Below, piece by piece: positions 3,133 through 15,477 of a DNA stretch of 15,547 nucleotides. Position numbers and translations under genes: made by a program. Below the pieces are notes generated by a model. The model ran no database searches and was not told the origin of the DNA. It worked only from the letters and a program-made list of their open reading frames with translations. Where the stretch lies: assembly GCA_026708165.1 (NCBI GenBank), contig JAPOVO010000272.1, positions 1 to 15,547 of the forward strand, in the 5' to 3' direction. The stretch comes from Chloroflexota bacterium (lineage in GTDB: Bacteria > Chloroflexota > UBA11872 > VXNJ01). The number at the start of each line of letters is the position of its first letter. The stretch's first letter is position 1.

Positions 3133-3849
3133 ATGAACGCTGATGAGTTTCGGAACGGACAGACTGTTGCCCTGTTGCTGGACATTGCCGCATTCGACGC
3201 CGCCCTGTCCGAGACCGATCGGTCAAATCGCTACTCCAGCATCCTGACTACTGTGGCCGCGAACAGGCGGCTCCGGCGGGCGACTGCCTACGTCGCTCTT
3301 GACTTACCCTCTTCGGCGCAAAGCGAGCTTCTGTCGACCGTGCGGGAGTCAGGATTTCGAATAGTGGGTAAACGGCTCAGGCCGCTTTCCGACGGCTCGA
3401 TGCGCGGCTACGTGGGAGTTGAGATGGCGGTAGACGCCGTGCTCGCGGCGGAGACTTGCGACATTGTTACCGTCGTTACCGGCGACGCCGATTTTCTACC
3501 GGCCGTTCGCGCGGCGCAAAGTAAGGGCGCACGGGTCGAAGTGATCGGATGTCCCGGGCAAAATCTAGATTCCTTGAGAGACGCCAGCGATGCGTTCACG
3601 GCAATCGGCAGTATCTTTGATTCGACCAAGTCCGGCGACCATGGCAAGCGCAGCGCACGCCGTCCACCGGCACGCGCCGCCAGATTGAAACGCAATGAAT
3701 GGCCGACCCCACCACCGCCGCCGCCCGAGTCGGCGGCCCGGCGCAGTGGGGCACGTCGGCCGCCGTCTTCGAAGACCCCCCGAGTCCTCGAAGGGGAGCG
3801 TCTGTCGGGCATTACCGCCACGAAACCGGACGAATCGCGGTCCGGATAA
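3133..3849 (+). CDS. NYN-domain protein (LabA/DUF88-like, putative PIN-like RNase)
   Basis: Residues about 11-162 match the NYN fold, a PIN-like nuclease domain seen in LabA/DUF88 proteins. The acidic residues expected to bind metal are present: Asp17 (VALLLD), Asp101 (VEMAVD) and Asp118/Asp120 in TGDADFLPAV (117-126), followed by KGARVEVIG (131-139). The family normally has an Asn three residues after the first Asp (D-x-x-N); here that position is Ala20, so activity may be altered. Residues about 163-238 are a basic, disordered-looking tail with RRPPARAARLKR and a run of six prolines (193-198), suited to RNA or protein contact and prone to ribosome pausing. The ATG at 3133 has a poor Shine-Dalgarno. 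The gene lies 38 nt after the antiporter and 31 nt before the IolE-like gene. It is presumably a cytoplasmic RNA-processing or regulatory protein; the substrate is unknown. Confidence 0.8.
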   Translation: MNADEFRNGQTVALLLDIAAFDAALSETDRSNRYSSILTTVAANRRLRRATAYVALDLPSSAQSELLSTVRESGFRIVGKRLRPLSDGSMRGYVGVEMAVDAVLAAETCDIVTVVTGDADFLPAVRAAQSKGARVEVIGCPGQNLDSLRDASDAFTAIGSIFDSTKSGDHGKRSARRPPARAARLKRNEWPTPPPPPPESAARRSGARRPPSSKTPRVLEGERLSGITATKPDESRSG

Positions 3850-3880
3850 AGGCGCGCCCGAAAGTGGCCGAACAGGCACG

Positions 3881-4738
3881 TTGCGCGTAGGAATCAGTCA
3901 CCTACAGTGGCCGGCAGACCAGCCACTCGACCAGATTCTCACCGAGATGGCCGAGATCGGCTTTCTGGGCATCGAGGGCGCGCGCGACTACTTTGGGCAA
4001 TCAGCGCAGCTTCGGGTTTTGCTCGCCGACGCCGGTATGGAAATGACTGCGGGAACATACGCCGCGAACTGGTTCGACAAGGAATGGCGCCATCGCGAGC
4101 TTGAAGGTCTGCGACACTCGGCCGAGTTCTACGCGGGCGTCGGAGCCGATTACGTCGTGATCGGCTCGCTCGGCTCGCCCCAGCGGTTTCTCACGGCCGG
4201 CCATCCGCCGTCTTCCCTGACCGAGGGGCTGTCCGACTACCAATGGGAGTTTTTCGCTGAGACCATCAGCATGGCGGGCGAAATCTGCTTGGACGAATTT
4301 CAGTTGCAGCTCGTCTTCCTCAACCGGGCCGGTTCGTTCGTGGAGTCGCGTGAAGAAATCGACCGGCTCGTCTCACTAACCGATCCGCAAACCGTGTCTC
4401 TGGCCGCCGACACGGGACAACTCTTTTACGGAGGCGTCGATCCCGCGGAGTTCTTCGAGCGAAACGTCGAACGAATTCGGTACGTTCATCTAAAGGACGT
4501 AAACCCCGACATTTACGAGCAGAACATCGCTGACGGGGGCTCGTACAGGGATTTCGTAAGAATGGAAGGCTTTACCGAAGTGGGTTCCGGCGCCGTCGAC
4601 TTCGAGGCGGTCATCGAAACCCTGAAGAGCGGCGGCTATGACGGGTGGCTGGTGATTGAGCAAGACTACACTTCAAGGGACCCTGCGGTAGCGGCAGGCG
4701 CAAGCCTGGAACACGTCAACTCCCTTCTGGGAGTATGA
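3881..4738 (+). CDS. IolE-like sugar phosphate isomerase/epimerase family protein (TIM barrel)
   Basis: This 285-residue protein belongs to the xylose-isomerase-like TIM barrel group and most resembles inosose dehydratase (IolE). It has an N-terminal GISHLQW strand, a DTG strand (177-179), YVHLKDV (201-207), a GGSYRDFVRMEGFTEVGSGAVDF block (219-241) and YDGWLVIEQDYT (253-264). Metal ligands expected for the fold are in place: Glu155, Asp177, His203 and Glu260. Two usual positions deviate: DTGH is DTGQ (Gln180), and the normal His-rich strand reads FLNRAG (146-151), so the substrate may not be inosose. I chose the TTG at 3881 because homology begins exactly there and AGG lies 4 nt upstream; an open frame extends back to 3695 but overlaps the NYN gene and codes low-complexity sequence. 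It is followed 10 nt later by the lipoprotein glycosidase, suggesting a shared carbohydrate role in the cytoplasm. Confidence 0.82.
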   Translation: MRVGISHLQWPADQPLDQILTEMAEIGFLGIEGARDYFGQSAQLRVLLADAGMEMTAGTYAANWFDKEWRHRELEGLRHSAEFYAGVGADYVVIGSLGSPQRFLTAGHPPSSLTEGLSDYQWEFFAETISMAGEICLDEFQLQLVFLNRAGSFVESREEIDRLVSLTDPQTVSLAADTGQLFYGGVDPAEFFERNVERIRYVHLKDVNPDIYEQNIADGGSYRDFVRMEGFTEVGSGAVDFEAVIETLKSGGYDGWLVIEQDYTSRDPAVAAGASLEHVNSLLGV

Positions 4739-4748
4739 GATATAGCCC

Positions 4749-5873
4749 ATGCGGAAGATTACGCGTCGTTCAATGCTGCGAGCGGCGGCCGTTGCCGCGC
4801 TGCTTCCCGCAGCTTGCGCGGACCCGACCGCCCCGACAGGTGGCGAAACCGATGAAAACCGGTGGGGGGCCAACACATTCCTGCACCTCGACTCCGACCG
4901 CTGGCGAAAGCAAAAGACGCTGGAAATGGCCGCGCGGGCCGGCCTTGGGTGGATTAAACAGCACTTTCCGTGGGAGGACATAGAGAGCCTCGACAAGGGG
5001 CAGTTCCTCAATCCCACCTGGAAGCACCCGACCTGGGATAAATACGACGAGATTGTCGACCTTGCCGACGAGAACGGCCTAAAAATCATCGCGCGGGTCG
5101 ACCGCACCCCGGCCTGGGCGAGACCCGAAGACTCTACGCCCACGGAGCCTCCAGCCGACCTCGATGACTTTGGAGACTTTGTTACCGCAATAGTCCGCCG
5201 ATATCGTGGCAGGGTCCGCCATTTTCAGATTTGGAACGAGCCGAACCTCGCGGCCGAATGGGGAGGGAAGCCGCCCGACGCCACCCACTATGTGAAGCTA
5301 CTGGAAACGGCGTTCTCGGCGGCCGTCGGCGTCGACCCGGAAACAGTGATTCTGGCAGCGCCTTTGGCGGCAACTCTGGAGATGAGCGACCGGGCGCGCA
5401 ACGAACTCGTCTATCTACAACAAGTCTACGACGTCGGCGGAGGCGACTACTTCCACATACATTCGGCCAATGCTTTCGGTTTGGCCTTTCCACCCGAGGC
5501 ACCCCCTGACCCCAAAGTGTTGAACTTCCGCCGCGTGGAACTAAGCAGGGAGCTGATGGAACAAAACGGCGACCGGCACAAACCGATCTGGTTCAACGAG
5601 TACGGCTGGAACGCTTCCCCTCCCGACTTCTCGGCCAGCCAGCTAACGTGGGCGCGCGTTACCGAAGACCAGCAGGCGGAGTGGACAGTGCGCGGCGTGG
5701 AGTTCGCCCGGGAAAACTGGCCCTGGGCGGGGGTGTTCAATATCTGGTTTCTAAGGCGTCCGTTCACCGATGTCGATCCGTCCAAGTCCGAGTACTACTT
5801 CCGGATGATCGATCCCGACTTCACGCCTAGGAAGGTCTACAAGGCGGTCGCCGAAGCGGCGAACAAGCGTTGA
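4749..5873 (+). CDS. Tat-exported lipoprotein glycoside hydrolase (clan GH-A, GH39/GH5-like)
   Basis: This 374-residue protein begins with a signal combining twin arginines (TRRSMLRAA, residues 5-13) and a lipobox-like LPAAC with Cys23, so it is probably exported folded by Tat and lipid-anchored outside the membrane. The rest is a single TIM-barrel hydrolase. IWNEPN (161-166) supplies the acid/base Glu164, and KPIWFNEYGW (278-287) supplies the likely nucleophile Glu284. The spacing and motifs fit retaining clan GH-A enzymes such as GH39; PslG of the Pseudomonas Psl polysaccharide system is a comparable enzyme. It is clearly paralogous to residues about 57-395 of the next protein, sharing GANTF, FQIWNEPNL, E-D-Q-A-W and DPDFTPR-type segments. 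The ATG has no close Shine-Dalgarno (GGGAG is 15 nt upstream), suggesting translational coupling to the IolE-like gene. Its stop overlaps the next start. The glycan substrate cannot be told. Confidence 0.85.
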   Translation: MRKITRRSMLRAAAVAALLPAACADPTAPTGGETDENRWGANTFLHLDSDRWRKQKTLEMAARAGLGWIKQHFPWEDIESLDKGQFLNPTWKHPTWDKYDEIVDLADENGLKIIARVDRTPAWARPEDSTPTEPPADLDDFGDFVTAIVRRYRGRVRHFQIWNEPNLAAEWGGKPPDATHYVKLLETAFSAAVGVDPETVILAAPLAATLEMSDRARNELVYLQQVYDVGGGDYFHIHSANAFGLAFPPEAPPDPKVLNFRRVELSRELMEQNGDRHKPIWFNEYGWNASPPDFSASQLTWARVTEDQQAEWTVRGVEFARENWPWAGVFNIWFLRRPFTDVDPSKSEYYFRMIDPDFTPRKVYKAVAEAANKR

Positions 5874-8800
5874 TCTACGGCGTGAAGCTCAAGTACCGTG
5901 CTCGCGCCATCGTGCTCGTGCTGGCGGTCGCACTGCTCACCGGCGGTTCGACCGTCGCATTGGTCTTCTACAGGCAATTCCTCGAGCGGGGCGTTGCCTA
6001 CCACGACCAAGGCGCGGTCACGATCAATCACGCCAGCGGGCCGGCGCTCGGCGCCAATACGTTTCTCACTCTGGAGCCGGATATCGAGAACATCCGGCGT
6101 GAGCTGGCGATCCTCAAATCGGCTGGCGTGGGGATCATTCGGCAGCAATTCCTGTGGGAGGAGATCGAGCCGGAAAAAGGAGTCTTCCGGAACCGGCAAA
6201 CCGGCGTCAGCACGTGGACGAAGTATGACGCCATCGTCGAAGCCGCCCGGGAACAGGGAATCGAAGTCATGGCCCGGCTGGAACGTTCTCCGAGGTGGGC
6301 AACGCCCGGCTGGGAACCCAAGATACCAGCCAGTCAGAAGCCGCCCGACGACGTAGAGCTGTTCGCCGACTTCGTCCATGCCGTCGTCTCCAGATACGAG
6401 GGGCGGATCCGTTTCTTCCAAATCTGGAATGAGCCGAACCTCTGGGGAGAATGGGGTGAATCAGAGCCTGACGCGGCTGAATACGTGGAGCTCCTCGGAG
6501 CCTCGTATCAAGCCGCCAAAGCCGCCAATCCTCACGCGGTCGTGGTTGCCGCCGGACTTGCCCCCACGACCGAGCGCGGCCCCAACAACATAAGCGACGT
6601 TCTCTACCTTCAGCGCATGTACTTCCTCGGAGCCAAGGACTATTTCGACGTTCTCTCCTCAATGTCCTACGGCTTGATAACCGGTCCGAGCGACGTTCGG
6701 ATCGGAGAGCGCTGGACGAATTTCCCCCGCGCCGTGCTGCTCAGGGACGTGATGGAGACCTTTGGCGACGCGCACAAACCCGTTTGGGCCTCCGAGTACG
6801 GCTGGATGTCCTTGCCGGACGGATGGAGCGGCCGTCCGAGCATCTGGGGCAATCATTCAGTCGAAGACCAGGCGGCCTGGACGGTGGAAGGGATATTGCG
6901 CGCCCGCCGCGAGTGGCCCTGGATGCCCACGATATTCGTATGGGCCTCACGCTGGCCGGAGCAGGCCGATCCCGACGACCCGACTTACTGGTTCAGACTG
7001 ATGGACCCGGATTTCACACCCCGTCCGGCGCTGCTGGCCCTGCAAGACCTCGCCCGCGAACGACCGGTCGCAGGAGCCGGATTGCATCAGGAGGACCACC
7101 CGGCCTTCACCTACGCCGGTCCCTGGCCTCGGGAACCAAGCGACGAAGCCGCTGCTGGATTCTGGTCCAGCACCGGCGTGCCCGGCGCGGTCGCTCAATT
7201 TCGCTTCGAGGGCGAAAACGTGAGTTTGGTGGCCCGACAAGGTCCCGACATGGGAATGCTGCGTGTACGCATCGATGGCCTCGACGCGCTCGCCGACCTG
7301 GTGCCCAGAAGCGAGTTCGGCGAATCGATCGTGGACCTCTACTCGCCCGAAGTCCGGCCCGCCTCGACGATTCCGCTGGCTTCGCGGCTGCCCGCTGGTG
7401 TCCACGTGCTGGAAGTCGAGAGCCTTGGACGCGCCTCACCGCGTTCCACGGGCGGAAGAGTCGTCATCGACGGGATCGCAGTATCGAACTCCAGACCGCT
7501 TTGGCCTTACGCGGCCACCGGAATCGCCTGGGCCGTGGCGCTTGGCCTCATTGCGTGGCGGTTCGCTCGCCCGATTTGGGACGCCGTACCCGCGCGCATA
7601 CGACAAGTTCGGCTGACGCCTCCCTTGCTCCGCTCTCATACCGTGTACGGAATCTCAAGCCCGGCGCTGCTGACAGCCTCCGCGGCCGCCATACTGCTTG
7701 CCGCGCTGCCCGGCGGTGACGCCCTCTCTCCGTTCACGATCCTGCGGCTCGTTATCCTGGCTTATCTGGCCGCCCTCGTTATCGCGCATCCAGATGCCGT
7801 AGCCATCGTGACCGCCGGCGCGCAGTTCTTGCATCCGCTCAGACCGCAAACCGGCCCCGTGGCATTCTCCGTTCCAGAGCTTCTGCTTATGGCTCTCGCA
7901 ACCGGATGGGCGGCGCGAGGCTTCTATCGACGTAAGTTCGAGCTGCGGCGTTCGACGATCGGCTTCGTCGCCGCTTACTTCGTACTCGCCGCGCTGGCCT
8001 CAACAGCGTTCGCCGAGTACCCAAAGTTCGCTCTCAGATCGTTCCGAACGACCGTCGTTGAACCCGTTGCGCTGTTCTTCCTGCTCACGGCTTTCCTGAG
8101 CGGACGGCGCGCCGCCGCGCTGATACCGGCTGTCGCCGCGGGTGGGGTCATTGCCGCCGCTACGGTCGTCTTCGATCCCCTGCTGGACAGGGTTATCACG
8201 GCAGGCGTGCCCAGACTGCGCGGAATCTACGAGTCCCCGAACAATCTGGCGTTCATCCTTGAGCGGACGATCCCGCTGCTCGTGGGCTTGGCCGTGGCCT
8301 GGAAGGGTTCGGCGCTAGGCCGTGCGGCGACCGCGGTCGCCGCCGGTGCCGGTGTGGTTCTGATTCTCACGTTCTCCAGAGGCGCGTGGCTAGCGTCGGC
8401 GGCAGCTACGGCTCTGCTGGGTCTGCCGCAATTGCGGAGGCTGCCGGTTAAGCGCAGGTTGCTCGGTCTCGGGGCCGTCCTCATTCCCGTCGCAGCGCTC
8501 GCGGCGCTGGTTGGAACGGACCGGCTCTCCATCCTTTTCAGAACCGGCGACCGCAGCGGTGTTTCAAGAGTTTGGCTATGGGACTCCGCCGTCGAGATGA
8601 TTCGAGATTTCCCACTCTTTGGAGTCGGTCTCGACAACTTTCTCTACCACTACGCGGCCTACCTTAGGCCCGAGGCCTGGCGCGAGCCGCACATGTCCCA
8701 TCCGCACAATCTGGTACTCGACGCCTGGTTGAGCACGGGAGTGTTCGGCGCGCTGGCCATCATCGCGGCGCTGGCCATCTTCTACCTTTTGATCAGACGG

Positions 8801-9046
8801 TCATACTGTCTGCCGGACTGTCCAATCCCGCGCCCGGTTTTACTCGGCGTGGCTGCGTCGATGACTGCGGCCATTGCACACGGGCTTGTCGACAACTTCT
8901 ACTTTCTCCCCGAACTGTCCGGGTTCTTCTGGACGCTCATGGCGTTCGCCGTTTGCCTGGCTAACAGCCCGACTCGGCAGCCGGGCAGCGCCTTGGAGAC
9001 GCAAGTCGGTCCCATCGAAGAGGGACAGGCAACCGCAGGGCCGTAA
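5870..9046 (+). CDS. Fusion protein: membrane-anchored GH39-like glycosidase, jelly-roll module and O-antigen ligase/polymerase domain
   Basis: This 1058-residue protein has four visible parts. A single N-terminal transmembrane anchor spans about 12-33. A clan GH-A hydrolase follows (about 57-395) with FQIWNEPN (acid/base Glu188) and KPVWASEYGW (nucleophile Glu309). Next is a jelly-roll, sugar-binding-like module (about 410-540) with the recurrent PGAVAQFRFEGENVSLVARQ and VDLYS...LPAGVHVLEVES pattern known from modules attached to secreted glycosidases. Last are about 12 transmembrane helices (about 545-1031) with the O-antigen ligase/Wzy signature: TFSRGAWL (834-841), DFPLFGVGLDNF (913-924), and a large outer loop ending in HPHNLVLDAWLSTG (944-957), His946 being the likely catalytic histidine. 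The frame is continuous, so the fusion is real. The TTG at 5870 overlaps the preceding stop (TTGA); GTG at 5882 is an alternative. All catalytic parts should face outside. It probably trims and joins or transfers a surface polysaccharide; this is inference. Confidence 0.87.
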   Translation: MIYGVKLKYRARAIVLVLAVALLTGGSTVALVFYRQFLERGVAYHDQGAVTINHASGPALGANTFLTLEPDIENIRRELAILKSAGVGIIRQQFLWEEIEPEKGVFRNRQTGVSTWTKYDAIVEAAREQGIEVMARLERSPRWATPGWEPKIPASQKPPDDVELFADFVHAVVSRYEGRIRFFQIWNEPNLWGEWGESEPDAAEYVELLGASYQAAKAANPHAVVVAAGLAPTTERGPNNISDVLYLQRMYFLGAKDYFDVLSSMSYGLITGPSDVRIGERWTNFPRAVLLRDVMETFGDAHKPVWASEYGWMSLPDGWSGRPSIWGNHSVEDQAAWTVEGILRARREWPWMPTIFVWASRWPEQADPDDPTYWFRLMDPDFTPRPALLALQDLARERPVAGAGLHQEDHPAFTYAGPWPREPSDEAAAGFWSSTGVPGAVAQFRFEGENVSLVARQGPDMGMLRVRIDGLDALADLVPRSEFGESIVDLYSPEVRPASTIPLASRLPAGVHVLEVESLGRASPRSTGGRVVIDGIAVSNSRPLWPYAATGIAWAVALGLIAWRFARPIWDAVPARIRQVRLTPPLLRSHTVYGISSPALLTASAAAILLAALPGGDALSPFTILRLVILAYLAALVIAHPDAVAIVTAGAQFLHPLRPQTGPVAFSVPELLLMALATGWAARGFYRRKFELRRSTIGFVAAYFVLAALASTAFAEYPKFALRSFRTTVVEPVALFFLLTAFLSGRRAAALIPAVAAGGVIAAATVVFDPLLDRVITAGVPRLRGIYESPNNLAFILERTIPLLVGLAVAWKGSALGRAATAVAAGAGVVLILTFSRGAWLASAAATALLGLPQLRRLPVKRRLLGLGAVLIPVAALAALVGTDRLSILFRTGDRSGVSRVWLWDSAVEMIRDFPLFGVGLDNFLYHYAAYLRPEAWREPHMSHPHNLVLDAWLSTGVFGALAIIAALAIFYLLIRRSYCLPDCPIPRPVLLGVAASMTAAIAHGLVDNFYFLPELSGFFWTLMAFAVCLANSPTRQPGSALETQVGPIEEGQATAGP

Positions 9047-12663: not shown

Positions 12664-15477
12664 ATGAAAGTTGATCCATCGGTAATCCCCGGCCTGCTCT
12701 TCCTGCTGGCAGAGTTGGTCGCGCTGGCTGCCGTGGGCTACGTCATTGTCCGCGTTGCGCTGCGAGAGTCCGATCAACGAGTCGCGCTGGCGCAAGGCCT
12801 GGTCGTCGGACCGGCGATCTGGGGCGTAGTCGTCAACTTCATTATGTACGCGTTACCGGGAATGGCCGGAGTTTTTGCTGGCTGGGTATCCGTGCTGGCG
12901 CTGGCCGCCGTGCTGGTATGGCGCGCTCCAACACCGGTCCGACTGCAATTGCGCACGGCGGGGGTGTTCGCTGTCGTTGCCTTGGCGCTCTTCTGGGCCG
13001 CGCTTGCCAGCCGGCAGACGATGGGCATAATCGACCCGCACGTGCACCTTGGACTCGCCGCATCGATCCGCGAGGGACTGTTCCCGCCCCAACTCCCTCA
13101 CAGTCCTGGGGCGCCGGCTCCCTATCACTATGGCTTCTATTTGTTAAACGGCCTGTTGTCGCCCCCGTTCGGCCCCAACCTGGCGTTCAACGAGGAACTG
13201 CTGGGCGCATATGCCTGGGTGAGCCTCTTCTTGGTGGTGACGACCGTTATCCTGCGGCGCGCCTCCCGTTTTGCCCTCCTGATCACCGCTCCGATTCTTC
13301 TCACGGCTGGCGTATGGACCTCTACCAGTTGGCTTAGCGGCATCTTGGAGGTTCCGGTCCCGATCGGTGTCCCGGCGGCCGGGATACGCGCATCTCTCAT
13401 GGAAATCTGGTGGCCATCTGTGGAGCTGCCTTACGCTTCGCGGTTTTTCGCGCTGTCAAATATCTGGAAGCCGACATTCCCGCTGTCGTATGCGCTGGCT
13501 TACATAGTGCTTGCGCACGCTGCAAGCGCCCGCCGACGGTCGTGGCTCTCGGTGATTACGCTCGCCGCGCTGGTCGGGTTTCTAGGTCTCATGTCGATCT
13601 CGCTCACCCCAATAGTGTTCCTTTTGTGGGCAAGCCTCGAAGCGATTCATGCAAGAGACATCAGGCGGACGGGCAATTCCGTGCGGGTCCCCTTGGTCCG
13701 CTCGGCCTCCGGTCTATTGCTCGCGGCGACATTAGTGTTGACCGTTTGGTTTTCCACCACCGTCTTGGGTGGCTCCGAGAGGTCCGCCCTGTCACTTGGC
13801 GGTAGCGAATACGTCGAGGGTTGGCCCATGTTCGGCGCGCTAGATCGGCTGCCGGGCGGGGTCGGCATACTGGAGCTTGGCCCGCTCGCCATTATCGGCG
13901 CTGCCTTGCTGCTGGCCCGGCGCGACCGCTTGGTGCTGGCCCTGGCGGCGGGAGCTGGCCTGTTGCTGCTTACCACGCTGGTGCTTGCATACGAGCCAAG
14001 ACCATACGACCAGGTCCGGCTCGAGCGCCACGCGCGCAACTTCGCGCTGTTTGCGCTTCTCATTGCACTCGGCGTCCGCCTGGCCGCCCAGAGGTCCATG
14101 CGCTGGCGCTACGCCATCAGCTCGGCGCTGGTAGGACTGATCGTTTGGCCGACAATCATCGCGCCCGTGCGCAACCTCGGCTTGGCGGTCGCCAGCGGGA
14201 TTGACCTCGCCAACGCGCGGCGAACGGCCACGGCCTCCCCAGCGGCTTTTCACTCTCGATTCGTGCTCGATTTCTCACCCTCTGACCGTGTCACCACTTA
14301 CATTCGCGACAACACCCCGGTCGACACGCGCGTCTTCTCCACTCATCCCGGTCAAATGACCTACGCCACGGGCCGTCCCAACGCGTCGGGATTTGCCGGC
14401 CTCGTCCACTTTCTGCGAATTAGAGGACCTGCGTATTTGGACGTTCACGACTATCTCGAGCCAGCCGCCGTCCGCCGGCTCGGCTTCGAATACATCCATG
14501 CGTCCGATTCGTGGGTGGAAAACCTACCCGACGACGCGGCCGAGCAGCTCAACGATCCTCGCCTGTTCGAGCTCCTCATCCGCGATGAGTCCGAGCGTCT
14601 CTACCGAGTTTTGCCAGCGTTTCTGAGCCTCGACGGGTCGCCCGCTCCCGCTTCATACGAGGCTCTGAGGCAGGCCGTTCCCGCGACCACCCGGGTATTT
14701 CTGCCCGAGATATTCAAATCGAGGGAAGTCACCCGCACTGCGCAGGCGTTGTCCCATACTCGGCTGCTCGGCGTCATCGATGGCGAGTCGATCGATCTGC
14801 AGACAGCCTGGTCGGCTGAGCCGCTCGGCGACCACGAGCCAGACCTGATCATCATGCCAACGGGCTTCGTTCCCTGGGTGCTTTCTCCCATCGCGCGCCA
14901 GCCGATCTGGTGGAGCGACGAAACCGCCGTCTACGCCATCAATGGCGCCATCGCGCCGATCATGCCGCCGCCGCCGTGGGCTGAGCCAATCGGTCTTGGC
15001 GTCCAGGTGCCAGGCGTGCACACCACAGACGGACGGGCAGTCTTTACCGCCACCTTCGATAACCACGCCGACGGCCGATGGTCAGGCCAGGACTGGGTGG
15101 TCATTGCGATAGACGAATCGCCCTTAGGCCTCCCGAAGAAACTCCTTCCCGATCGCCACACTCCGGCGACAGACCTGTGGTTTTCCGGTCAGATAGGGCT
15201 GGATTCGCGAACAACCTCACTTACATACGAGTTCGATTTCCTCGCGCCCGGCCTGGCATTTCGACACGGTGCCGGCGCGTGGACTCCCGCTCAGGCGTCG
15301 GACGCGGAATTAGGTCCGGGTACGTACACTCTGGCCGTGCGTCTGCGCCACGAATACAAGCCGAATCAGTGGCGCACGGTGTCCTACATTCCAGTGCTCA
15401 GGATCACGGTCTCCGAGACCGGTCAACTCTCCTATCAGGTCCACGAAGAGGCCAGAAGCATCAAGACTGATCAGTAG
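12664..15477 (+). CDS. Large polytopic membrane protein, GT-C glycosyltransferase-like, with C-terminal extracytoplasmic domain
   Basis: The 937-residue protein has about 12-13 hydrophobic segments in residues 8-500 (for example 8-30, 41-62, 68-86, 97-117, 180-198, 346-367, 402-443, 459-474, 482-500). A soluble region of about 420 residues follows. The first large outer loop carries DPHVHLGLAASIREGLFPPQ (124-143) and APYHYGFYLLNGLL (152-165). An acidic/His motif and an aromatic-G motif in that loop are typical of GT-C enzymes, which move sugars from polyprenyl-phosphate donors on the outer face of the membrane. The region YIRDNTPVDTRVFST (546-560) then TGRPNASG (569-576) resembles the soluble part that follows the helices in many such proteins; beyond about 775 a beta-rich stretch may be a separate domain. 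It starts at an ATG with GGAG 9 nt upstream. I cannot name a family or substrate; a purely structural or transport role is not excluded. It seems monocistronic. Confidence 0.65.
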   Translation: MKVDPSVIPGLLFLLAELVALAAVGYVIVRVALRESDQRVALAQGLVVGPAIWGVVVNFIMYALPGMAGVFAGWVSVLALAAVLVWRAPTPVRLQLRTAGVFAVVALALFWAALASRQTMGIIDPHVHLGLAASIREGLFPPQLPHSPGAPAPYHYGFYLLNGLLSPPFGPNLAFNEELLGAYAWVSLFLVVTTVILRRASRFALLITAPILLTAGVWTSTSWLSGILEVPVPIGVPAAGIRASLMEIWWPSVELPYASRFFALSNIWKPTFPLSYALAYIVLAHAASARRRSWLSVITLAALVGFLGLMSISLTPIVFLLWASLEAIHARDIRRTGNSVRVPLVRSASGLLLAATLVLTVWFSTTVLGGSERSALSLGGSEYVEGWPMFGALDRLPGGVGILELGPLAIIGAALLLARRDRLVLALAAGAGLLLLTTLVLAYEPRPYDQVRLERHARNFALFALLIALGVRLAAQRSMRWRYAISSALVGLIVWPTIIAPVRNLGLAVASGIDLANARRTATASPAAFHSRFVLDFSPSDRVTTYIRDNTPVDTRVFSTHPGQMTYATGRPNASGFAGLVHFLRIRGPAYLDVHDYLEPAAVRRLGFEYIHASDSWVENLPDDAAEQLNDPRLFELLIRDESERLYRVLPAFLSLDGSPAPASYEALRQAVPATTRVFLPEIFKSREVTRTAQALSHTRLLGVIDGESIDLQTAWSAEPLGDHEPDLIIMPTGFVPWVLSPIARQPIWWSDETAVYAINGAIAPIMPPPPWAEPIGLGVQVPGVHTTDGRAVFTATFDNHADGRWSGQDWVVIAIDESPLGLPKKLLPDRHTPATDLWFSGQIGLDSRTTSLTYEFDFLAPGLAFRHGAGAWTPAQASDAELGPGTYTLAVRLRHEYKPNQWRTVSYIPVLRITVSETGQLSYQVHEEARSIKTDQ

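Follow-up and report, generated by a model that had tools for sequence, protein, structure and literature searches.

A PslG-like glycoside hydrolase and a WaaL-like Wzy_C transferase joined in one membrane protein of Chloroflexota

Wzy_C enzymes use lipid-linked donors, and PslJ of the Psl system is a Wzy-type polymerase. The Pseudomonas aeruginosa hydrolase PslG (PDB 5bx9, 4zn2, 9g17) is described as a retaining endo-beta-glucosidase with Glu165 as acid/base and Glu276 as nucleophile (PMC11912335). It is found mainly at the inner membrane and has PslE as an interaction partner, and the activity of PslG influences Psl quantity (PMC6813494). Together with the Psl polymerization complex (PslA, PslE, PslJ, PslK and PslL) it is an example of a hydrolase that works at the membrane with synthesis proteins (PMC6813494, PMC12816162). 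The pslG gene is co-transcribed with the psl synthesis genes, and the need for a glycosyl hydrolase in a polysaccharide synthesis cluster has been named as an open question (PMC9075953). The structure of the O-antigen ligase WaaL (PDB 7tpg, 7tpj) is from Cupriavidus metallidurans (PMC12800693), and a His in WaaL and in PglS has been named the likely catalytic base (PMC10449877, PMC12800693). PglS and PglL are Wzy_C-type O-oligosaccharyltransferases with an undecaprenyl-pyrophosphate glycan, a proposed active-site His and protein acceptors, described with no mention of a glycosidase domain (PMC12800693); we liken them to the protein below by description. PslG is a separate protein numbered to 442 and the Psl complex consists of separate proteins. 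In contrast, a 15,547-nt stretch from a Chloroflexota bacterium (GenBank assembly GCA_026708165.1, contig JAPOVO010000272.1; hereafter the window) ties a surface-sugar cutter and a joiner together in one chain of a membrane protein: a single open frame of 1058 codons encodes a PslG-like glycoside hydrolase (GH) domain, a beta module and a Wzy_C transferase (Table 1).

An earlier note on this DNA, made from the sequence alone, had read the frame as a glycosidase, a beta module and an O-antigen ligase/Wzy domain with Glu188, Glu309 and His946 as catalytic residues. This was confirmed: structure prediction gave both the GH barrel and the ligase fold, and alignment and conservation support the three residues. 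Residue numbers throughout are those of the 1058-residue frame; the two nearest homologues are 1054 residues long, so an in-frame GTG is the probable start. The best sequence match of the GH domain among solved structures is PslG (3.5e-10, residues 65-436), which is also the top match by fold (about 21% identity). PslG and the window GH share the fold, the columns of the glutamate pair and membrane attachment, and by analogy Glu188 may be the acid/base and Glu309 the nucleophile. Pfam gave only sub-threshold glycosidase matches. Because Glycoside hydrolase family 39 (PF01229) scored 19.2 bits against a curated cut-off of 26, we name the domain PslG-like GH-A and do not file it under that family.

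The C-terminal part scored 85.1 bits with PF04932 (Wzy_C) against a curated cut-off of 31.7 (E 5.6e-24), and a profile of the ligase part found WaaL at 4e-10, with the next match at 0.24. The fold match to WaaL is of GT-C type over 369 residues at 15% identity; this result for the ligase model rests on VIA, which re-ranks Foldseek's own candidates. Like WaaL, the protein has an HxHN motif in a large loop, here predicted to lie outside; it also has the conserved Arg expected of the Wzy_C family. Unlike WaaL, it has four extra helices and the fused GH. IctB (TIGR00947, 65.5 bits, NCBIfam cut-off 366.4) and PEP_O_lig_1 (TIGR03097, 39.6 bits, cut-off 188.1) scored below threshold. A helix count from hydropathy only had put the catalytic loop on the wrong side and was replaced by a count on the WaaL plan, which puts it outside. 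Both active sites would then be on the outer face, in agreement with the earlier note, a placement we keep as a prediction because the first core helix is short. Comparison of the window with locus L025 gave ratios of nonsynonymous to synonymous substitution (dN/dS) of 0.17 for the GH, 0.08 for the beta and 0.25 for the Wzy part (dS 0.08-0.37), which weakly supports purifying selection on the fusion. Both domains belong to known kinds; neither the fused architecture nor the remodelled sister clade described below was found in print among open-licence full texts. Databases name such proteins 'O-antigen ligase family protein'.

Table 1. Features of the fusion gene and its upstream neighbours (positions in the window; aa, amino acids; pLDDT, predicted local distance difference test)
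Feature	Position	Strand	Basis or remark
GH-beta-Wzy_C fusion gene	5870..9046	+	frame 1058 aa; probable GTG start 5882 = 1054 aa
N-terminal membrane helix, residues 14-32	5909..5965	+	hydropathy; model helix 2-39
PslG-like GH-A (beta/alpha)8 domain, residues 55-400	6032..7069	+	structure-sequence match and predicted fold
Glu188, putative acid/base (WNEPN)	6431..6433	+	same column as PslG WNEPN glutamate
Glu309, putative nucleophile (SEYGW)	6794..6796	+	same column as PslG STEWGW glutamate
Beta-sandwich module, residues 401-545	7070..7504	+	model strands 404-540, block pLDDT about 85-96
Membrane helix after beta module, residues 545-572	7502..7585	+	hydropathy and model
Two-helix segment before WaaL-like core, residues 597-639	7658..7786	+	model; outside WaaL match, which begins at model residue 99 = protein residue 638
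WaaL-like GT-C core, 12 helices (first short), residues 640-1031	7787..8962	+	profile search and predicted fold
Wzy_C (PF04932), residues 824-965	8339..8764	+	Pfam
Arg900, helix before catalytic loop	8567..8569	+	invariant in rows counted; model
His946 of HPHN	8705..8707	+	aligned with His of HAHN in WaaL
NYN-domain gene, conserved upstream neighbour	3133..3849	+	Pfam and locus comparison
Xylose isomerase-like TIM-barrel gene, same gene run	3695..4738	+	start as listed is possibly too far upstream
Second PslG-like GH gene, directly upstream of fusion	4749..5873	+	both glutamates; twin-arginine and lipobox-like N-terminus by eye

The fusion is widespread in Chloroflexota. A scan of a species-genome collection found 537 stretches encoding relatives, of which the best 80 were kept; all 80 loci have GH and Wzy_C in one frame. 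By record taxonomy 78 of them are Chloroflexota, L089 (Promineifilum) is unplaced and L043 is labelled Alphaproteobacteria. The L043 fusion adjoins mnmE, a neighbour typical of the window's lineage, and this contig is therefore possibly mis-binned. In a scan of 41 near genomes, 36 carry a Wzy_C inside a frame of more than 1000 aa with a GH match in the same frame. As to the others, G002 encodes a helix-beta-Wzy_C protein directly behind the isomerase gene with no GH match, G012 keeps the solo GH with no fusion seen, G003 showed no fusion, the fusion of G024 is cut by a contig end and G035 has only a fragment. The natural GH-less version (helix, beta module and Wzy_C in a 683-aa stop-to-stop frame) lies at L112:280-2328 (-), in a genome of the window's family that has no solo GH match.

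The first homologue set comprised 120 listed proteins of 206 plus the query (121 proteins), from which the alignment took the 100 with at least 950 aa, leaving out 21 shorter proteins. Among these 100 (window included), Glu188, His944, His946 and Arg900 are present in all and Glu309 in 96, so the glutamates persist in close homologues. In the best 80 loci, His946, Arg726, Arg799 and Arg900 are found in 80/80, Glu188 in 76/80 and Glu309 in 34/80. A query lacking Glu309 found 1070 proteins, 120 of them listed; 118 were new, one of 882 aa was excluded, and Glu309 is missing in 117/117 of those counted. With P0113 and P0117 they make up 119 listed sister-clade rows. Position 309 in these rows is N (75), H (31), A (5), D (3), G (2), Q (2) or another residue (1), position 187 is Asp throughout, and Glu188, Arg91, Trp96, Trp143, Asn190, Trp312 and Trp351 are kept in 119/119. 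We also pooled 297 rows, which are not independent since sets P and L may share genes. N187 always occurs with Glu309 (119/119) and the nucleophile is lost in 163/174 D187 and 4/4 H187 rows, so that 167/297 rows keep the fusion though the nucleophile is gone. Because 11 D187 rows still have Glu309, Asn187 probably changed to Asp first and the nucleophile was lost afterwards, with the other pocket residues held.

A Wzy_C tree was built from 95 of 180 available fused rows and 25 of 32 solo rows. The clade of 57 rows that holds the sister group contains 48 rows without and 9 with Glu309. Glu309 is kept in all of the remaining 38 fused rows, 30 of which belong to the window's clade and 8 to another; the Glu309 trait needs 6 changes on this tree. 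Counted by loci, the large clade has 55 members (32 Anaerolineae, 17 without class), of which 9 keep Glu309, compared with 25/25 outside it.

The acceptor is probably not that of WaaL, because LpxC was missing in all five genomes chosen for examination. LpxC and Omp85 were each found in 0/5 (the controls were positive in 4/14 and 7/14 known genomes, and the window's genome is 84.5% complete); the lipid A-core acceptor that would mark WaaL proper, the lipopolysaccharide (LPS) ligase, was thus not found in the same cell in these five. Priming transferase and Polysacc_synt flippase families are present in 5/5, and with LpxC and Omp85 missing this makes it probable that these cells build and export lipid-linked glycans and lack a lipid A acceptor for them. 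Wzz was found in 0/5 genomes of the window's family and 0/6 of genus g5.

In the window's lineage the gene order is NYN gene, isomerase-like gene, solo GH and fusion, with mnmE on the opposite strand. Read by eye, the N-termini of most solo GHs have twin-arginine and lipobox-like features. Both glutamate motifs occur in 16/18 solo GHs, exactly the 16 that adjoin a fusion. Two solo GHs, L031:2283-3539 (+) and L041:942-2198 (+), lack the nucleophile and do not adjoin a fusion. On a GH tree of 69 rows, the 18 solo GHs and 11 of 12 GH-beta rows group together (support 90), apart from the fused rows; judged from this tree, solo and fused GH are old paralogues. The GH-beta row P0106 falls among the fused rows, so on at least one further occasion pieces have come apart or been fused. 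A 1014-aa stop-to-stop frame directly upstream of the G006 fusion, L114:3215-6256 (+), has a solo-type GH at residues 677-1008; Pfam matched nothing in the 670 residues at its start, which may be mere open frame.

Near the fusion in Anaerolineae-type loci we found a sugar epimerase (42 loci), a solo Wzy_C (37), a GT4 glycosyltransferase (32) and a GtrA-type protein (28), counted out of 81 loci, many of them cut by contig ends; these cluster names rest on one representative each. The solo Wzy_C lies a median of about 1 kb downstream. Its count of 37/81 comes from clustering within 8 kb; under a stricter similarity search within 3.5 kb it is 18/66 informative loci. Two Wzy_C enzymes in one gene run invite a division into polymerase and ligase. 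The idea that they differ by a lost His was rejected, as HAHN is present in 31/32 solo Wzy_C. The window's genome has a weak, sub-threshold third Wzy_C at L109:2462-3871 (+), in which no HxHN was seen by eye. A macro-domain-type protein, named from one representative, stands close behind the fusion in 15 loci (e.g., L047:13160-13711 (+)). Further along the window, 12664-15477 (+) encodes a protein of 937 aa whose first half contains hydrophobic stretches; at the cut-offs applied, it matched nothing in Pfam, NCBIfam or the PDB sequences.

We propose that the protein works as a cytoplasmic-membrane enzyme whose two active parts both face outward. The C-terminal part would take a glycan from undecaprenyl-pyrophosphate and join it to an acceptor, either a growing chain or a non-LPS surface acceptor; by analogy, His946 would act as the base and Arg726, Arg799 and Arg900 would lie near the pyrophosphate. 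The N-terminal part would bind the same glycan as it leaves the transferase. In the window's lineage it would cut beta links of the glycan through Glu188 and Glu309 and thereby trim, proofread or release the chain, and the neighbouring lipoprotein-like GH would be a second cutter of the same polymer. A role in glycan assembly, which the earlier note had suggested, thus finds support as a prediction. We consider the chances about even that the fused GH trims the chain made or moved by its own transferase. A tandem GH directly upstream occurs in 15/30 loci with Glu309 (at least 1.5 kb of upstream sequence) and 0/38 without, uncorrected for kinship.

Several points weigh against trimming. The tandem-GH contrast tracks clades: all 38 loci without Glu309 share one clade, so it amounts to few independent comparisons. 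The wider family retains the fusion without the nucleophile, and cutting is thus not a constant part of the function. Wzz is present in 27/41 near genomes, mostly fusion carriers; the GH therefore does not simply replace this chain-length regulator, and we rejected such a stand-in as a rule. A dedicated glycan operon was likewise rejected as a rule: Anaerolineae-type fusions adjoin glycan genes, but the fusion in the window's lineage lies outside a glycosyltransferase cluster, and the other over-threshold Wzy_C of the window's genome lies inside one. Loss of pslG lowers Psl and does not abolish it (PMC9075953). The model itself rests on computation, with substrate and cutting predicted.

The GH may instead act everywhere mainly as a gauge or guide that holds the nascent glycan over the transferase and sets processivity or length by binding, with cutting secondary and kept in the window's lineage. 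This reading is possible but doubtful. It would account for the sister clade, in which (among the 120 listed of 1070) Glu309 is gone in every new protein and the other pocket residues are kept, and for N187D, which goes with and probably precedes the loss of the nucleophile (0/119 N187 against 163/174 D187). Against it, Glu309 is kept in all 25 loci and 38 tree rows outside the large clade, the solo GH retains both glutamates in 16/16 adjacent cases, and Glu188 is also lost in a few sister-clade members (4/80 loci). Both GHs are missing in G002 and a nucleophile-less GH survives in the sister clade, which suggests a transferase that is able to work without cutting, yet in most cases retains the GH fold.

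We think it rather improbable that the fusion is one of convenience, in which two enzymes of one pathway are translated together and act independently. The earlier note had taken hydrolases and ligases of surface glycans to be normally separate proteins; that they are normally unconnected is not supported, given the co-transcription of pslG with psl synthesis genes (PMC9075953). GH-type proteins of 581-622 aa without Wzy_C among the listed homologues, the solo Wzy_C that shares gene runs with the fusion in the sister clade and the GH-less form in G002 fit independent action. Yet the fusion is present in 36/41 near genomes and survives loss of the GH nucleophile, and the solo GHs and all GH-beta rows except P0106 are set apart from the fused rows.

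The earlier note also suggested that the ligase receives a cut end from the GH: a covalent glycosyl-enzyme or fresh chain end would be passed on as donor or acceptor (transglycosylation). PslG does react covalently at Glu276 with a designed inhibitor (PMC11912335), and a single chain carries both active sites, which the helix count places on the same side of the membrane. Such a relay is nevertheless quite unlikely, given the 167/297 nucleophile-less rows that keep the fusion and the genome of the same family that has beta-Wzy_C without GH. By established family knowledge Wzy_C enzymes use lipid-linked donors, and a cut chain is not one. An assembly or gene-calling artefact joining two genes is hardly credible even though the window's assembly has 505 contigs: no sign of an assembly error was seen near the window, and the reading is refuted by the recurrence of the same frame in 80/80 loci from separate genome records, including contigs longer than a million bases (L047, L067) and, from the same order as the window, the single-contig genome G006.

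We tentatively suggest, as a broader possibility that we would not yet favour, a Chloroflexota-wide transferase class in which a WaaL-type enzyme reads its glycan through a built-in glycosidase fold. Part of the family would use this fold as a cutter. In the other part, N187D and then nucleophile loss would have turned it into a guide that no longer hydrolyses, or into an Asp-Glu site with new chemistry, and in this form it would control chain extension or release by the ligase. Many Chloroflexota have a PslG-type hydrolase built covalently into the joining enzyme, and natural versions occur that possess the nucleophile, lack it or lack the GH altogether; comparing them would be a direct test of whether the hydrolase cuts the chain, measures it or only binds it.
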